In this document: positions 4,809-12,343 of the stretch, piece by piece
Numbering within the stretch: position 1 is the stretch's first letter
Layout of the letters: each line of letters begins with the position of its first letter
IMG/VR virus record: IMGVR_UViG_3300042868_000890
Coordinates: 1-32,650 of that record
Length of the DNA stretch: 32,650 nucleotides
From: a virus
Strand: one strand, 5' to 3'
The notes under the pieces: generated by a model
Told to the model about the DNA's origin: nothing
The model's input: the letters and a program-made list of their open reading frames with translations, nothing else
The model's database searches: none
Position numbers and translations under genes: made by a program

Positions 4809-6530
4809 TTATTCCTCTGCTTGCTTTCTAGCTTTACGAAGGTTTTGTATACCAATCTTGGCCGCACTAATACTGCCTTCATTAGCCTTGTTTTTGACTG
4901 CTTGAGCAATTGCCGCGTTAACTGCCGCATCATCATATAGATCAACGTTATTTAACTCTTTTAGTTGCGAACGTACAGCTTCAGCCGCTTTTTCATTTGC
5001 AGTTAATAAATATGGCCTGATCAATGTCTTAGCGTTATCTCTAATATCTGAGGCTTTCTTTCTTATTTGCTCTGAAGTTGGATATTTACCGTCTGCATCT
5101 GGTGTAGATGCAAATTTACGCAAATCAAGTTCACCAGTATTCTTGGTGTTAATCGCAATCGACTTGCCTTCTTTTGAATTAATCTCAGGTGGCAACATAG
5201 AGTTCTGGATGTTTAAAGCCAGTTCAATTTGCTTAACACCCCACGTCACATCATCGCTTGGATTAGCAATGTTTACCACAAATGTTTTGGCAGTATCGTT
5301 CTTTAACAAACCAGATTTCTTAGCGGAAATAACATCTTCTACCGTGGCAGTACCAGCAGATATATTGCGTTGAATTGTTGCCAATGTCTGCAAGTCATCC
5401 TGCTTTGCACCTTGCGTGTTGTAGTTATCAAGCCACTCACGGGCAGACTTTAGCGTAGATGGGTCAACAGCCAATGTTTGCAATTGCTTAAAGTACTGGC
5501 TTGGATTGCTAGACATATACATCTTGCGTAAGATGTCATTAGCATCAAATTGCTCTGCCGCCAAGAATGAATCTCTTGAATTCTTTTGGAAAGTAAATTG
5601 CTCAATAATGGATTGTCTTGTCAGCTTTTTCTGATCACTACCCATGCTGTCCCAGATAGGTTGCATCTTTCCAAAGTCACCAGCAAGAATCTTGTTTAAC
5701 TTGTCAACACGGTTAGCACCAAAGTCCTTGGATGTAGCGTAATCAGAGATGACGTTTTTCTTTGCTGATTCAGCAATGATCATCGCCTTTTCCCAAATCT
5801 CATTGCTTCCACCCAAGATACCAACAGAGTCTGCATACTTTTGCAGTTTGCTGTTTAGCATTTTTGTGATATCAATTGGCTTTCCAGTTTGTGGATCAAT
5901 AGAGTCAATCTGATACGTCATTATGTCTTCTAGTTGCTTACCCAATGTAGGCAACATAGCTGTGTACTCAGCCTTCTTTTGACCAAGGAAAGTTTTTAAC
6001 TCTAGTTCTGAAATCTTTTTATACGATGTGCTGGCAACGCTGGCCAAAGAAGCACGATGCTTCAATGAGTACTCAGGGCTAACAGCAATCATTGCGGCAG
6101 ACTGGCCATCCATCAGGTCAGCCAGACGTTGCTGTGCTTGCACCTTTGTAATCTGACCCATCTGGAAATTACGCTCAATCGTGTCAGCCTCTGCGTCTGC
6201 CTTTAAAAGCAACTCAGAAGATAAGCGTTGGGCAACTACGCTTTGATATGTCTCTTGGAATACAGCGCCAGCACCCTTTACTTTGAGTGCGGCAGGATTA
6301 GAGATTGCCTCATTTAACTGAGCATTTGTGGGAGGATTCTCCACAGCGTATTTAATAGCCTGTTTCTTGGCTTCAGTAGTAGCAGACTCTTCTGCATACG
6401 CAAACATGCGATCTAGATTCTGACTTAACTGCGACAAGCCCTGTGCCTGCACTTGTTGTGCAACTGGGTTGATGCGCGGCATATCAGCGTACTGAACGCC
6501 TAGATTTTGATAGCGTGGTAGATCAGCCAT
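4809..6530 (-). CDS. Internal virion protein (T7 gp15-like)
   Basis: 573 residues, largely predicted alpha-helical and rich in Ala, Gln, Lys and Ser. The N-terminus (PRYQNLGVQYADMPRIN) matches the short 'core protein' opening common in podovirus internal proteins. The gene lies directly between gp14-like and gp16-like genes, as in T7, where gp15 forms part of the internal core and then a periplasmic tube during DNA ejection. GGAG followed by TTAA ATG places the start immediately after the upstream stop. No catalytic motif is seen. Confidence 0.75.
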   Translation of the reverse strand: MADLPRYQNLGVQYADMPRINPVAQQVQAQGLSQLSQNLDRMFAYAEESATTEAKKQAIKYAVENPPTNAQLNEAISNPAALKVKGAGAVFQETYQSVVAQRLSSELLLKADAEADTIERNFQMGQITKVQAQQRLADLMDGQSAAMIAVSPEYSLKHRASLASVASTSYKKISELELKTFLGQKKAEYTAMLPTLGKQLEDIMTYQIDSIDPQTGKPIDITKMLNSKLQKYADSVGILGGSNEIWEKAMIIAESAKKNVISDYATSKDFGANRVDKLNKILAGDFGKMQPIWDSMGSDQKKLTRQSIIEQFTFQKNSRDSFLAAEQFDANDILRKMYMSSNPSQYFKQLQTLAVDPSTLKSAREWLDNYNTQGAKQDDLQTLATIQRNISAGTATVEDVISAKKSGLLKNDTAKTFVVNIANPSDDVTWGVKQIELALNIQNSMLPPEINSKEGKSIAINTKNTGELDLRKFASTPDADGKYPTSEQIRKKASDIRDNAKTLIRPYLLTANEKAAEAVRSQLKELNNVDLYDDAAVNAAIAQAVKNKANEGSISAAKIGIQNLRKARKQAEE

Positions 6531-6995: not shown

Positions 6996-8977
6996 TATGT
7001 GCCTCCGTATATAGAAAGTTTGTATTCAAGACCTAGCAACGTCATTTTGAGCGGCAAGTCTTGGCCAATTGTAATTTGTGCATCTTGGTCATATCCCAAA
7101 ATTCCACCAACTTTCTTAGTACCAGTAAACGATGGCATAGCATTATCAAGAATGTCAACAGTGTCTAGCGTCCTGATAGGAACTAGATTGCCATTGATTT
7201 TCAAATGCTGAGTTTCATACAGCAAAGCATTAACTTCAATAATGCGCTTAACAAAGCCAGTACGCACACCCGCGGCCAATCTTGGCTCTACCGGCAATGT
7301 CTTGATAGACACGGTAAACGGCAATCCAACTTCATAACTTGTTGTGCTGGCGCGGTCAAAGGTTACTGATCCACCACCACTTACCACCTCATCAGACAAC
7401 ACACTTCCATCACAGATGACGTTTAGTGTTTTACCAATATGAGGAAGACTGGTTGCAGTAGCCGAAGCGCCACCAGAGAACGCACAATCAGTGAACTTGG
7501 TAGTATCAAACACCTCAACGTAGTACTTGTCCACGCTGTTAAACGTGCGCTTGACAACAACATAGATGTCTTCAATGTCAACACCAACGTCTTTAAACAG
7601 ACCATCAGTGGTAATTCTGCTTGGTGCTACCACCTCTTGCTGGCGTAGGATTGAGTAAGCCGCCATCGTGCCATCGCCATTGAGCAAGTACAAGGTATCA
7701 GACTCTTCCGTAGAAGTAGCCTTACGCAACGCCAACTCTTGTGGGCTGATGATCAAATGGCTAGACAATAAGCTAATGCTTGTGCTTATGTATGACAGCG
7801 TTGTATCGCTGAACGTAAACTCATTGAGTGCTTTGCCTTGGCGCTGTATATACAAAGTACCAGACTGCAAGATTTGAACTCGTATGCCTTCTCTAGAGCC
7901 ACTACGGCTGACAGAACGAACAAAGAAGTTTGCAGGCGTAATAGGCTCTAGTCCGTTTTGCGGAACATAGAACTCGCCACCAGTAGTAAACACTTGCAGA
8001 TCACGGCCAGAAATAATGTCCGTAATGATGTTCAAACTGTTGGTGTCTAGCGTTGCCTCAATCGCATCGTCATCGTAGGCTTGATCAGGCGTAAAGTCAA
8101 AGAACAAGTTAACTTTGCTACCCCAAACGGTAGACGGACGTGACTTAGAGCCGCCAAAGTACAAGCGTCCCTCATGGAATGTGCAAGTACGTGGCCAGCC
8201 CTTGGTAGAACTCCACACATCTTCATAGCCAGACTCATACTCCCATCCACCAGAAGCCATTGCACTGGTATCAAAGAACGGAACTTCAGTTACAGCAGAC
8301 ACAACAGTACCGCTGGTAAAACCAACAATGCGCGCACGTCCCTGCACACCTCCATTGACATACTGACCAACACTGCCAGACGTAAACACACTGCTTCCTG
8401 CCGTTAACGTGATGCTTCCAGATGTTGCAGACGGAGTCAAAGTAGACGCTGGGTTGCTAGAACTTACGGTATAAGCATACTTAGGAATGCTAGTAAAAGA
8501 GATGTTGCTAACAGTCCAACTGGCATCTGTACCGCCACGAACAATCGTAATAGGGTTAATGTCTTTGTGCGTAATGATCAACGTATCAGCAGATTGCGTC
8601 CAGCACATGGTAGACAAGATGCTACTGGTAACAGCAGTAACCACCAGATATGGGTTGCCAGTGCCATTGATGTTTGTAATCAGGGTCTTGTCTTTAAATA
8701 TATACATACGCTGATTGACAAATATCAGCATGTAACTGTCGTCTACGTTAAATTCAAATGGCACAGACCTAGTACCACTAGCAGGACTAGCCGCACTTGG
8801 AATCTCAACTATGTATTTCAGACCACCACGACGACGAACACCGCCTTGTGGTTGTACAAGAACATTAGTTAAAGTCTCAGCACCATTTTGGTATTGTTTT
8901 AAATCAACACGCGCTCTTAACAGTGGATCAATCTCACCACTGCTAAAGTTTGTCTGAATGCTGACAAGTCTTGTCAT
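6995..8977 (-). CDS. Tail tubular protein B (T7 gp12-like nozzle)
   Basis: 660 residues, close to the usual size of the family. The N-terminus reads QTNFSSGEIDPLLRARVDLKQY, continues with a 'GGVRRRGGLKY' motif and later 'TFHEGRLYFGGSKSRPSTVWGS', all typical of podovirus nozzle proteins. This beta-rich protein forms the distal end of the short tail and gates DNA exit. Its ATG overlaps the stop of tail tubular A (TGATG at 8977), so the two are translated in linked fashion. Confidence 0.92.
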   Translation of the reverse strand: MTRLVSIQTNFSSGEIDPLLRARVDLKQYQNGAETLTNVLVQPQGGVRRRGGLKYIVEIPSAASPASGTRSVPFEFNVDDSYMLIFVNQRMYIFKDKTLITNINGTGNPYLVVTAVTSSILSTMCWTQSADTLIITHKDINPITIVRGGTDASWTVSNISFTSIPKYAYTVSSSNPASTLTPSATSGSITLTAGSSVFTSGSVGQYVNGGVQGRARIVGFTSGTVVSAVTEVPFFDTSAMASGGWEYESGYEDVWSSTKGWPRTCTFHEGRLYFGGSKSRPSTVWGSKVNLFFDFTPDQAYDDDAIEATLDTNSLNIITDIISGRDLQVFTTGGEFYVPQNGLEPITPANFFVRSVSRSGSREGIRVQILQSGTLYIQRQGKALNEFTFSDTTLSYISTSISLLSSHLIISPQELALRKATSTEESDTLYLLNGDGTMAAYSILRQQEVVAPSRITTDGLFKDVGVDIEDIYVVVKRTFNSVDKYYVEVFDTTKFTDCAFSGGASATATSLPHIGKTLNVICDGSVLSDEVVSGGGSVTFDRASTTSYEVGLPFTVSIKTLPVEPRLAAGVRTGFVKRIIEVNALLYETQHLKINGNLVPIRTLDTVDILDNAMPSFTGTKKVGGILGYDQDAQITIGQDLPLKMTLLGLEYKLSIYGGT

Positions 8978-9662: not shown

Positions 9663-9944
9663 TTAATCAGTATCAGTTGCTGTAACTGTCACACCGTCAG
9701 TGATGTCAACCACGCCAGAAGCGTTGCTGACCACATAAGCAGTAGACATAACTGGTGTACCACCAGTGGCGCTGTAACAGAAAACGATGTCACCGACTCT
9801 CAACACTGATGCGACAGAGTTGAAGTAGCCAGAAACACGAATTACTGATTGAGCGTCAGTTGATGAATAGCTATAAATAGCTGGTGCGTTGCCAGATTTA
9901 GACTGGCCACCGATAGCGTTAAAGCCTGTTGCTGAGAATGCCAT
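9663..9944 (-). CDS. Small capsid-associated protein
   Basis: 93 residues, beginning MAFSATGFNAIGGQSKSGNAP. The rest is beta-rich (VLRVGDIVFCYS, STAYVVSN) and low in charge. A protein of this kind usually follows the major capsid gene in podoviruses of aquatic bacteria. It is a fair candidate for a capsid decoration or stabilising protein, but I know no proven function. AAGGAG lies between the capsid stop and this ATG. A hairpin terminator follows the stop. Confidence 0.75.
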   Translation of the reverse strand: MAFSATGFNAIGGQSKSGNAPAIYSYSSTDAQSVIRVSGYFNSVASVLRVGDIVFCYSATGGTPVMSTAYVVSNASGVVDITDGVTVTATDTD

Positions 9945-9956
9945 GATGTGTACTCC

Positions 9957-10799
9957 TTATTCTGTACAAGTAATGTCAACGCAACCACCAGCATCGATAG
10001 CAATAGCGCCAGCACTGAACATAGAAGCTACTAACCATGAGGTTTTCTCAGGCACGTAGTTGATTTCACTGCGGATTGCCATAGACTCAGCCATGCCGAC
10101 TGCCATCTTGTGGTATGCATACACCTTACGGGTAGAACCAGAACCACCACCAGTTAAACCACCTTCAGTGCGGTCACCAATGACGTTAAAGGTAAAGCCC
10201 ATGAATGTGTTGATCTCACCTTGTACCAAAGCCTTGACTGTATTAAAGTCAGAACTGGTAACTGATGTCTCAGACAACAAACTGGCCAACTGTGATGCAT
10301 GGATCAACATATAGCGGTCTTCTGCTGGTACGTTTGCAGTGTTTAGCAAACGTGAAGCTTCACGCAATTTAGCCATGTTCAAGTTTGTACCAGCGCCACC
10401 GATGCTAGTAGCAACTGTCAAGCTGGTGCTTGATGCGGCTAATGCGTCAATGATCATCTGGTCTGAACGACGGCCAATAGCTTTAGCAACAACTTGCACC
10501 AACTCTTGGCGCTCGTCAAAGTTAACTTTAGCTTGGTTGAAAATGTCAGAGTACTCAGCCGCAATGTAGTCTGTCAAAGTGACAGTTGCTTGTGAATAAG
10601 TGACGTTGAGTGGGGTGATATCAGTCTGTGGTACACGAACTTGTGCAACGCCAGAGCCGATCTTTGGGAACTTATGTGTGCTTGCAGTAACGCCAGTACG
10701 CAGACGGACAGTGTTACGCAAGACAGCATCACCTTGATACGCTTGTTTAACTTCCGTGTCGAACAGGGTTACAAAAGCATTAGAGATACTAACTGCCAT
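9957..10799 (-). CDS. Major capsid protein
   Basis: 280 residues. Features fitting a HK97-type coat protein are an N-terminal helix, 'FPKIGSGVAQVRVPQTDITPLNVTYSQATVTLTDY', the long 'RQELVQVVAKAIGRRSDQMIIDAL' helix, and the late segment 'MGFTFNVIGDRTEGG' followed by 'HKMAVGMAESMAIRSEINY'. It lies downstream of the scaffold gene as expected and is the only protein here of capsid size. AGGAGAAAACA precedes the ATG at 10799. The gene is separated from the scaffold by terminators, so strong capsid expression probably uses its own promoter in 11076-11494, which I could not pin down. Confidence 0.9.
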   Translation of the reverse strand: MAVSISNAFVTLFDTEVKQAYQGDAVLRNTVRLRTGVTASTHKFPKIGSGVAQVRVPQTDITPLNVTYSQATVTLTDYIAAEYSDIFNQAKVNFDERQELVQVVAKAIGRRSDQMIIDALAASSTSLTVATSIGGAGTNLNMAKLREASRLLNTANVPAEDRYMLIHASQLASLLSETSVTSSDFNTVKALVQGEINTFMGFTFNVIGDRTEGGLTGGGSGSTRKVYAYHKMAVGMAESMAIRSEINYVPEKTSWLVASMFSAGAIAIDAGGCVDITCTE

Positions 10800-10877
10800 T
10801 GTTTTCTCCTAGAAAACGGTTGATGAAATGTTTATCGCCAACGGTTGTCCAGAAAACTCTGGGCCAAGACTTGTGCC

Positions 10878-11075
10878 TTACAGCGCACCCCTGAATAGAC
10901 TACTATCATTACTGGCCTTGCGGTTGTCAGTGTTTGCATTATAAGCATTTTGTAAGTTTGTCAAGAGGGTATTTAAAAATATTTCATACCTACCACAATC
11001 AGCACAACTCCTGCGCTCCCTGCCAGAAGTCAATTCCGCTTGACTAACCTTACCGCCACATGGACATATCAGCAT
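10878..11075 (-). CDS. Small zinc-ribbon-like protein
   Basis: 65 residues. The first 30 carry C-x-C-G-G (CPCGG, residues 4-8) and C-x2-C-G (CADCG), a four-cysteine pattern for a zinc ribbon. The C-terminal half is Asn-rich with no motif. AAGGG sits 5 nt before the ATG at 11075. It lies immediately before the capsid gene at the end of a long hairpin-rich leader. A nucleic-acid-binding regulator is possible, but the function is unknown. Confidence 0.7.
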   Translation of the reverse strand: MLICPCGGKVSQAELTSGRERRSCADCGRYEIFLNTLLTNLQNAYNANTDNRKASNDSSLFRGAL

Positions 11076-11112
11076 CTTTTCCCTTAATTGCTACTTGGTG
11101 AATGTTTGAGCA

Positions 11113-11155
11113 AAGCGTAGCCTATACCGTGTCAGAACACAGCATCGCTACGCTT
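11113..11155 (-). other. Nested stem-loop upstream of zinc-ribbon/capsid genes
   Basis: Outer 9-bp perfect arms AAGCGTAGC and GCTACGCTT (11155-11147 and 11121-11113) enclose an inner stem GTGT-TCTG-ACAC. No T-run follows on either strand, so this is not a terminator. It lies 38 nt before the zinc-ribbon ATG and could be a 5' leader element that protects or regulates the mRNA. Confidence 0.5.
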
Positions 11156-11362
11156 GGATGAATTGCTACTCGGAGCCATGCCATCGCATCACGCTGAACA
11201 GACTTATATGGATTGAGGCGCATACGCGAGGCTCTATCCACTACCACCCGGCTCTATTCTTAGCCCACCGCCCCTGCTTTGGTTCGCTCATGTAACAGGG
11301 TTTTTTAAGATTCCACCACCGACGTACCGCATGGATTCCGATTTATCGTGGAAGAAACAAAA

Positions 11363-11453
11363 AAGCCGTTTACAACTACGCTCTGGTGGAAGTCTTTCTT
11401 AAATGATCTACAACAGTCACTTAAAAAAGACAGAACGTATGTGTAAACGGCTT
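11363..11453 (-). ncRNA. Long hairpin with terminal T-run (attenuator, terminator or small RNA)
   Basis: Minus-strand RNA can fold as a 12-bp perfect outer stem (AAGCCGTTTACA with TGTAAACGGCTT), a 3x3 internal loop, a 7-bp stem (ACGTTCT with AGAGCGT, one G-U), a 7-nt bulge, then an 11-bp stem (GTCTTTTTTAA with TTAAGAAAGAC, one G-U) and an 18-nt loop. The outer stem is followed by TTTTTTG. An 11-codon ORF with GGAAGG upstream (ATG 11456, TAA ending 11421) runs through the 5' arm, so ribosome passage would open the hairpin. An attenuator, a simple large terminator and a stable small RNA are all possible. Confidence 0.55.
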
Positions 11454-11494
11454 CATCTTTGTCACCTTCCACAGTAACAGTTTGGATTGTACAT

Positions 11495-11522
11495 AAAAAA
11501 AGCCCCCGCGCAAGCAGGGGCT
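11495..11522 (-). terminator. Rho-independent terminator after scaffold gene
   Basis: Minus strand: AGCCCCTGC, loop TTGC, GCGGGGGCT (9 bp with one wobble), then TTTTTT. It lies 45 nt beyond the scaffold stop and should separate packaging-module from capsid-module transcription. Confidence 0.85.
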
Positions 11523-11566
11523 AAGTCTAGAAGGAATATCCATGAAAACTGACTTACGCCAGCCCC

Positions 11567-12343
11567 CTAACCATACCTCTTTTCAAAGAGTTTTTCAACC
11601 TTTGCACGGTATCCAGCATCAACTTTATATTTAGGATCGGCAACCATGCTGGACAATTCCTCATCAGACATAGCAGTTTCCCCGCTATTCTTCAAAGTTT
11701 CTACTGGTACACGGCCTTCGTAAGTCTCACGTAACTTCATCAGAGCCTTCATGCCCTGTGCTGTGCCGCCCCAGACCTTGTATTCCTCAAAGTCATCTCC
11801 TGACCAGATACCCTTTTGTACCATGCCACGCGCCCAAGAGGTCATATTGCCAATGATGGCATCTGCATTAGGACCAAGGGCTTCACGCTCTTTTTTGGCT
11901 GATAACTGGGCTTGCTGGTTATTACTAGCCCCCATAGATGTAATATCTTTGGCTAAGTCTTCAAAAGCTTGCTGGCTGATGCCATACTTTTGCGCCCATC
12001 CAAGGTAAGACTGGACAACTGGATCGTCCTGATTTAGTCCTTCAAGGGCTTCTAAGTTGTACTTTCCGCCTTCAGGAGCCTTGTGGCCGCCTGCCCTGAA
12101 CTTCTTTTCTAGTTCTACGTAGGATTTACTAATTCCCTCTAGATCAGGCTCCGCTTTGTCTTTGTTCCAGAATTTCTCTGGCCAGAAGTCTGGTCTGTCT
12201 AGGGGTGTATCGTCTTCAGTGCCGGCTGGTTTCTGAAGATGTTCGATAGTGGATTGCTCTTGGCTACTGGTTGTCGGCTGACTGGGGTCTTCAACAGACA
12301 CGCCATCTAGCAGGCCAGAGTTGTCATTTGCTTCTTCACTCAT
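11567..12343 (-). CDS. Scaffolding (capsid assembly) protein
   Basis: 258 residues, acidic, with a disordered Ser/Thr/Pro-rich N-terminus. It then shows 'RPDFWPEKFWNKDKAEPDLEGISKSYVELEKKF' and a helical second half, the normal make-up of T7-type capsid assembly proteins. The lysine-rich C-terminal helix (ending KVEKLFEKRYG) is the usual capsid-binding end. It lies between portal and capsid genes as expected. The stop of the preceding small gene overlaps its ATG at 12343. It is followed by a strong terminator. Confidence 0.88.
   Translation of the reverse strand: MSEEANDNSGLLDGVSVEDPSQPTTSSQEQSTIEHLQKPAGTEDDTPLDRPDFWPEKFWNKDKAEPDLEGISKSYVELEKKFRAGGHKAPEGGKYNLEALEGLNQDDPVVQSYLGWAQKYGISQQAFEDLAKDITSMGASNNQQAQLSAKKEREALGPNADAIIGNMTSWARGMVQKGIWSGDDFEEYKVWGGTAQGMKALMKLRETYEGRVPVETLKNSGETAMSDEELSSMVADPKYKVDAGYRAKVEKLFEKRYG

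Follow-up and report, generated by a model that had tools for sequence, protein, structure and literature searches.

The window, a stretch of 32,650 bases from one IMG/VR virus record, carries on its minus strand a structured element (sRNA1) that lies between structural genes (Table 1). Upstream of sRNA1 is a scaffold gene with a Pfam match to the T7 capsid assembly protein (PF05396), and downstream is the gene of the major capsid/head protein (phrog_3437 match). A head-tail adaptor and tail proteins are also encoded near here, and a YqaJ-type exonuclease and an ERF annealing protein are found farther off. Before the capsid gene is reached, sRNA1 is followed by a second conserved RNA region (RNA2), an ORF of 65 aa, and a structured leader of the capsid gene preceded by a promoter-like site. 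The leader is likely a separate cis-regulatory RNA. The ORF is possibly a passenger gene; a similar paired-cysteine ORF was found after a family-B RNA2 in a different phage (L091).

Table 1. Features of the window between the scaffold gene and the capsid gene (coordinates in the window; RNA letters refer to the minus strand).
Feature	Coordinates	Strand	Basis or remark
Intrinsic terminator after scaffold gene	11501..11522	-	22 nt upstream of sRNA1; loop region holds the -35-like hexamer of sRNA1
Predicted sRNA1 sigma-70 promoter	11486..11513	-	TTGCGC 11513-11508, 16 nt, TACAAT 11491-11486; 8/12 matches
sRNA1, whole structured RNA	11359..11479	-	Predicted 5' end ~11479, 3' end in U-run; covariance model, covariation, fold
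P1, 5'-terminal hairpin GUUA/UGAC	11461..11478	-	Every cell paired in A2 and in A3 (100%)
K, GUGGAAG, P1 loop, pseudoknot 5' strand	11466..11472	-	Exact complement of K'
11-codon ORF	11420..11455	-	Judged not a gene; in 1/74 representatives (window only)
P2 5' strand, AGCCGUUUACA	11442..11452	-	Covariation, fold
P3 5' strand, UACGUUCUG	11431..11439	-	3' of conserved CA/GU internal loop; covariation
P4 hairpin	11393..11430	-	Sequence and length variable; covariation, fold
K', CUUCCAC, pseudoknot 3' strand	11386..11392	-	Inside the big hairpin, at the P4/P3 junction
P3 3' strand (11385-11377), internal-loop GU, P2 3' strand (11374-11364)	11364..11385	-	Covariation
U-run, predicted transcript end	11359..11364	-	Sequence; promoter of at least 9/12 absent just after in all 74 representatives
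RNA2, family B	11096..11348	-	Directly downstream of sRNA1; A4 alignment, 11 sequences, 76% mean identity
RNA2 direct repeat, copy 1, AGUAGCAAUU	11161..11170	-	After GGCUCCG
RNA2 direct repeat, copy 2, AGUAGCAAUU	11086..11095	-	After CACCA
65-aa ORF, CxC and CxxC cysteine pairs	10878..11075	-	Window copy has no match in Pfam or PHROG
Promoter-like TTGACA-15-TATAAT before capsid leader	10938..10964	-	Sequence
Structured 5' leader of capsid gene, separate RNA	10800..10934	-	20-sequence alignment; 13/24 predicted pairs with kept double changes

Folding of minus-strand 11480-11340 (141 nt) gave -61.5 kcal/mol, compared with -27.5 +/- 3.5 for 200 dinucleotide shuffles (z -9.7, 0/200 as stable). For the trimmed stretch 11479-11357 (123 nt) the value was -51.8, with z -8.2 and again none of 200 shuffles as stable. 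The long hairpin proposed by the initial annotation is therefore confirmed far beyond chance (z -8 to -10), and the three stacked stems, the T-run, and the normal terminator just upstream that it described are all present. Two of its points stood only in part. The hairpin does lie between structural genes (scaffold and major capsid), but three more features intervene before the capsid gene; and the hairpin exists, but forms only the 3' two-thirds of a ~115-nt RNA whose real start is placed at ~11479, with a 5' hairpin (P1) of its own. From the sequence evidence, the hairpin probably serves a discrete small-RNA gene of the phage as both body and terminator.

The predicted RNA of ~115 nt contains, from 5' to 3', P1 with loop K, a linker, P2, a CA/GU loop, P3, P4, K', the 3' strands, and U6. 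Covariance model R2 matched the window at 11359-11478 with 69.6 bits (E 5e-14). Across relatives P1 is of the GUUG/CAAC type and P2 of the AGCCGUUUACU/AGUAAGCGGCU type. A second sequence class, with a GAACCCUUUGG outer stem (L023, L025, L030, L035, L036, L038), matches the same plan by eye, and its K of ~9 nt is accompanied by a K' that changes along with it. For the window, the secondary-structure fold lets P1 reach into K, which counts against the pseudoknot model.

Relatives of sRNA1 are found in more than 100 viral contigs, from bacterial viruses of fresh water and the sea. A first search with an exact DNA pattern returned seven contigs: L051 and L089 carry the element, and the other five share one unrelated stretch. 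Among the viral-contig relatives of the capsid gene (80 loci), regions upstream of the capsid revealed the same element with differing sequence, and a pattern of 18 nt from the last stem plus the U-run gave at least 120 loci. An architecture scan (10-bp outer stem before T5, upstream hairpin, and a loop-to-interior match of at least 6 nt) produced 140 hits in 139 of 213 loci (1.81 Mb; the loci overlap, several contigs having been fetched twice, and L001 and L002 are the window), compared with none in 60 Markov-1 random copies (0.53 Mb). The 88 unique sequences, which exclude L001 and L002, L199 (chance), L123 (a variant), and a plus-strand hit in L092 (a different element), were reduced to 74 representatives. 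The plus-strand element of L092, ending at 8964, has the sRNA1 plan in quite different sequence: the loop of a hairpin is complementary to part of a long terminator's interior. The same contig also holds a normal sRNA1, which hints at a wider class.

The structure of sRNA1, including the pseudoknot, is conserved. K' is a perfect complement to a 7-nt GUnnnnn of the P1 loop in 74/74 representatives, a count that is partly due to selection, because the scan behind this set, the 88 unique elements, and the alignments A2 and A3 demanded a K match of at least 6 nt. About 25 distinct K sequences are involved (27 entries are listed, a few of which repeat the same K from a start one base earlier or in shortened form). 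A match of at least 7 nt between an element's own loop and interior was found in 87 of the 88, versus 1.4% of 6972 cross-pairings of different elements. A less biased count was obtained from the set picked solely by 18 nt of the P2 3' arm and the U-run. Among the 120 matches listed in this set, four were due to chance (L093, L111, L166, L199) and one was cut off (L203); the other 115 of the matches listed comprised 111 with K/K', three with one mismatch (L173, L183, L194), and the variant L123.

Covariation was measured in A2 (19 sequences including the window) and in A3 (37 sequences, cut from 39 by dropping L062 and L187 before alignment, both with perfect K). Paired cells reached 98.0% in A2 and 97.0% in A3, compared with 84.8% and 85.7% in shuffled alignments. 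Pairs with double changes numbered 21 (shuffled, 11.2) and 18 (10.6), respectively, and the covariation scores were 0.485 (0.215) and 0.417 (0.188), with 0/500 shuffles for each of these measures. The K pairs showed double changes at five of seven positions in A2 and likewise in A3, and pairing fell to 33-53% when the register was slid by 1-3 columns. P4 was the weakest helix (79% and 87% paired in A3 and A2). In a structure-blind mutual information analysis of the 37 sequences, K pairs ranked 1, 2, 4, and 6 and the top six were all structural; the top 20 contained 13 structural pairs, four neighbours of such pairs, and three that were neither. One further compensated change was seen by eye in P2 of MW202484.1. 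Compensatory changes are thus present throughout the relatives, the opposite of the lack of such changes that would speak against the hairpin. U-G pairs persist in A3 at 39-99 (22 of 37 sequences), 51-87 (21), and 53-85 (17), and since these lasting pairs are on one strand, they point to selection on the RNA of this strand and not on DNA. In a test of intramolecular geometry, linker length was uncorrelated with P3 length (Spearman 0.14, p 0.24, n 73), so K-K' could also form between two molecules.

A promoter-like site precedes P1. Scored at a fixed place, at least 8/12 promoter matches were found in 60 of 72 representatives (5.4% of shuffles) and at least 9/12 in 44 of 72 (1.0% of shuffles). 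The -35 of the window is poor, with 3/6 matches, which counts against its promoter. The -10 is located at -13/-12 relative to the first G of P1, and with this spacing the start site falls at P1. A free scan before P1 detected a promoter of at least 9/12 in 51/74 representatives, versus 8.6% of shuffles, and just after the U-run this level was reached in 0/74, versus 4% of shuffles. sRNA1 therefore appears to combine two features of a phage small-RNA gene, a promoter with its start at the RNA 5' end and an intrinsic terminator of its own (the P2 stem and U-run). In the window (11513-11486) and its kin, terminator and promoter are overlapped, with the -35 within the terminator loop region and the -10 just past the T-run. 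A full TTGACA is found at the -35 inside the terminator in L028, L029, L032, L033, L051, and L106.

Directly downstream of sRNA1, and tightly paired with it in occurrence, is RNA2. In the A4 alignment (second class included), 14 of 61 predicted RNA2 pairs have kept double changes. The RNA2 of the window alone folds modestly (z -1.9, 6/200 shuffles as stable), and its structure is therefore less secure than that of sRNA1. Family-B RNA2 is closed by GGUGG and a terminal CACC (A4 columns 84-88 with 260-264), which are mostly invariant. GGUGG and CCACC motifs were also seen by eye in families A and C, which suggests that the RNA2 families may be one superfamily. When 83 unique elements with at least 150 nt downstream were grouped by single linkage, 82 fell into four groups (58, 14, 5, and 5) and L122 stood alone. 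Three RNA2s of family C (the group of 14) exceeded the 49.4-bit threshold of the Rfam family Betaproteobacteria-1 (RF02932), with 92.4 bits for L118, 91.9 for L151, and 82.1 for L098. The RNA2s of L094 and L209, also scanned, were below threshold, and the family-B RNA2 of the window had no RF02932 match at E<=1. RF02932 was over cut-off in 5/399 bacterial genomes, and sRNA1 was found near none of nine bacterial RF02932 places in seven genomes (~1.5-kb flanks). BLAST of two RNA2 queries in phages gave no match.

In the window's family, both RNAs were found in 31 of 71 capsid loci, sRNA1 only in none, RNA2 only in one, and neither in 39. These 71 loci have at least 560 nt upstream or hold both RNAs, and they were searched for RNA2 families A and B. 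They remain from 77 after removal of six that were too short; three of the 80 capsid loci, with the capsid cut at a contig edge, had been excluded. The one exception with RNA2 only, L017, has near 5471-5577 an sRNA1 without its 3' half, which could reflect either decay of the copy or a fault in the assembly. Loci with neither RNA include L005-L009, whose capsids are 97-98% identical to that of the window; such near-identical capsids without the cassette indicate that it comes and goes as a unit. With 39 of 71 relatives lacking it, sRNA1 gives no sign of being needed.

RNA2 of families B and C also contains a phage-specific direct repeat of 8-11 nt, found in 11/11 family-B and 4/14 family-C members, with others in family C showing it by eye at 7 nt. 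The repeat is listed for the window, L023, L025, L030, L033, L035, L036, L038, L055, L063, L091, L118, L153, L172, and L178. Copy 1 follows GGCUCC(G), and copy 2 directly follows CACC(A) at the apparent 3' end of RNA2, so that the repeat resembles an internal copy of the flank. A by-eye look for its complement gave none convincing. The cassette looks modular. An extra ~65-200 nt is found between sRNA1 and RNA2 in L051, L100, L028, L032, L039, and L175, and some of this sequence is tRNA-like by eye; a stretch of ~65 nt, lying just after sRNA1, is common to L051 and L100, which are two different phages. In L138, an ORF-like stretch separates sRNA1 from RNA2.

sRNA1 is phage-borne and mobile, with one copy per phage. 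Of 14 records searched with model R2, 12 had a single forward match (10 virus records, one MAG, and MW202484.1), and the weaker second matches were the same places on the opposite strand. Two capsid relatives, MEP301 and Dunaliella virus SI2, were without an R2 match. A pattern scan of genome contigs gave two matches, L211 and L212. L211, 7.8 kb long, belongs to a betaproteobacterial MAG and carries phage-type genes; L212 (Flavobacterium) was negative in the structural scan. Over 399 genomes of the MAG's order, R2 matched the MAG alone and none of the 398 others (stricter filters). A host-derived RNA was accordingly rejected, sRNA1 being confined among these 399 genomes to the MAG, on a contig with phage-type genes. 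Of 50,697 annotated phage records, MW202484.1 alone has sRNA1, and there an annotated hypothetical protein covers it; a 23-nt match in phage P1 was taken as chance. No sRNA1 was found in 72,556 plasmids. In Rfam release 15 there was no gathering-score match at the sRNA1 place of the window or of 25 loci in further scans, and the best match in window 9900-11700 was sub-threshold (27.6 bits) and lay over the upstream terminator. A window-type capsid is in the locus for 45 of the 140 hits. Elsewhere, ten chosen neighbour proteins gave nine Pfam matches and one without a match, and the matches included Sak and ERF annealing proteins, YqaJ, PD-(D/E)XK nucleases, RusA, Toprim/DnaB, Cro/YdaS, HNH, and DUF932. 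These varied neighbours and positions suggest that the element moves between phages and genome sites.

The best explanation, which we hold to be reasonably likely, is that sRNA1 is a small folded RNA acting in trans and the first product of a mobile two-RNA cassette. RNA polymerase would start at the sigma-70 promoter, at a start site coinciding with P1. The transcript would fold into P1 and then the stacked P2-P3-P4, and the P1 loop K of 7-9 nt would pair with K' at the P4/P3 junction. Transcription would stop at the U-run to yield a compact pseudoknotted RNA. Because shape is kept and sequence is free, we infer that its most likely mode of action is in trans, as a folded RNA that probably has a protein partner, and not via a base-pairing seed; with K consumed in the pseudoknot and its sequence not conserved, a conserved antisense seed is not evident. 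The cassette order would be promoter, sRNA1, terminator, and then the larger RNA2. No promoter specific to RNA2 could be detected, so that read-through, within one transcription unit, is its probable source. The alternative raised by the initial annotation, a stable small RNA whose end is its own terminator, is strongly supported by the predicted 5' promoter, the 3' U-run, and the compensatory changes in relatives.

A free trans-acting RNA does not explain why RNA2 follows, and a promoterless RNA2 leaves room for a role of sRNA1 in cis. It could be the regulatory leader of RNA2, whose terminator is passed by a fixed fraction of polymerases or is controlled by a factor, sRNA1 itself being the attenuated product. 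Lambda pR'-tR' and type III toxin-antitoxin loci are models for such an arrangement. This fits the position of RNA2 behind sRNA1 with a terminator between them, and also the promoter counts of at least 9/12 before P1 and after the U-run (51/74 and 0/74, the latter versus 4% of shuffles). It is nevertheless rather unlikely. The strongest covarying pairs of the 37 sequences included no antiterminator or competing helix (weak competitors could be missed), pseudoknot and terminator stem are compatible instead of exclusive, and so elaborate a conserved fold exceeds the needs of a terminator. In addition, the two RNAs can be separated by an ORF-like stretch (L138) or by extra sequence (L028, L032, L039, L051, L100). 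Translation-dependent attenuation, the first idea of the initial annotation, has hardly any chance of being correct. Its 11-codon leader ORF is present in the window from ATG to TAA (MKPFTHTFCLF), together with the GGAAGG motif, but the ORF is confined to the window. A linker ATG occurs in 19/74 representatives, and one with a Shine-Dalgarno-like motif in 2/74 (the window and L032). GGAAGG, read as its ribosome site, overlaps pairing strand K. With no conserved leader ORF with a ribosome site and no mutually exclusive helices found, a leader-peptide attenuator was rejected.

Since K-K' could join two molecules, sRNA1 might also form a dimer or ring in which K kisses K' of the next molecule. 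This would be by analogy with the phi29 packaging RNA, which oligomerises through interlocking loops. K and K' are strictly complementary, phage-specific, and free to vary in sequence, as are the packaging RNA loops; the length of the linker does not follow that of P3; and in the window's family the element lies at head genes. Outside this family, however, the loci examined adjoin recombination/replication genes and not packaging genes, and the window has no Rfam family match, so that we regard an oligomer as improbable. The long stem, U-run, and late-gene position would also suit an ordinary strong terminator or an RNase III processing hairpin between late genes, and T7-like phages have RNase III sites among their genes. 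Such a plain hairpin needs neither a 5' promoter nor a covarying pseudoknot, and a normal terminator is already present 22 nt upstream; this reading is disfavoured as very unlikely. Still less credit was given to a DNA element (cruciform, origin, recombination or packaging site). Mobility, inverted repeats, and nearby recombination genes agree with it, but the stable U-G pairs of one strand would be A-C on the other, and promoter and U-run are on the same strand, which disfavours it.

Beyond the trans-acting sRNA1 preferred here, a broader proposal for the cassette is plausible but tentative. It might be a mobile two-RNA system without its own protein, in which the pseudoknotted sRNA1 always comes first and is read through into exchangeable large RNAs sharing a GGUGG...CCACC-closed core. 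Families B and C would then carry an internal copy of the 7-10 nt after their own 3' end, possibly as a guide/target copy. If true, this would be an undescribed kind of phage RNA machine, perhaps for recombination or counter-defence.

Known systems share some of these traits. The lambda pR'-tR' 6S leader RNA and the HK022 put RNA are likewise structured RNAs between a phage promoter and a terminator to be passed; in sRNA1, by contrast, termination is a property of the fold itself, and what follows is a large RNA. Phi29-type packaging RNAs have phage-specific complementary loops under structural constraint, a trait shared with sRNA1, which lacks a link to packaging genes in the other contexts examined and has no Rfam match. 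Betaproteobacteria-1 RNA, which reportedly comes from a 2017 survey and for which no function was found in the literature, matches the RNA2 of L118, L151, and L098, that is, the downstream partner and not sRNA1. Type III toxin-antitoxin systems such as ToxIN (PMC3475682) share with the cassette a promoter, a pseudoknotted RNA, a terminator, and a downstream unit reached (in the cassette, probably) by read-through. Unlike them, sRNA1 is a single copy (one forward copy per record) instead of tandem repeats, and it is followed by RNA2, with no ToxN-like gene; the 65-aa ORF of the window is without a Pfam or PHROG match. Phage-encoded sRNAs, as reviewed in PMC12197685, are like sRNA1 short intergenic phage RNAs; the word pseudoknot is absent from this review, and its relevant passages describe neither the sRNA1 architecture nor a partner RNA.

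As judged from sequence, sRNA1 is upheld as a previously uncatalogued, new RNA family in a mobile two-RNA cassette. Its presence in 1 of 50,697 annotated phage records may explain its absence from catalogues. sRNA1 would add a widespread and strongly supported RNA family, and Betaproteobacteria-1 RNA gains a genomic setting as the downstream partner in a phage cassette. Because this unit passes between phages that are unrelated and varies in presence even among close kin, comparing or deleting it in a cultured phage offers a way to test what it does.
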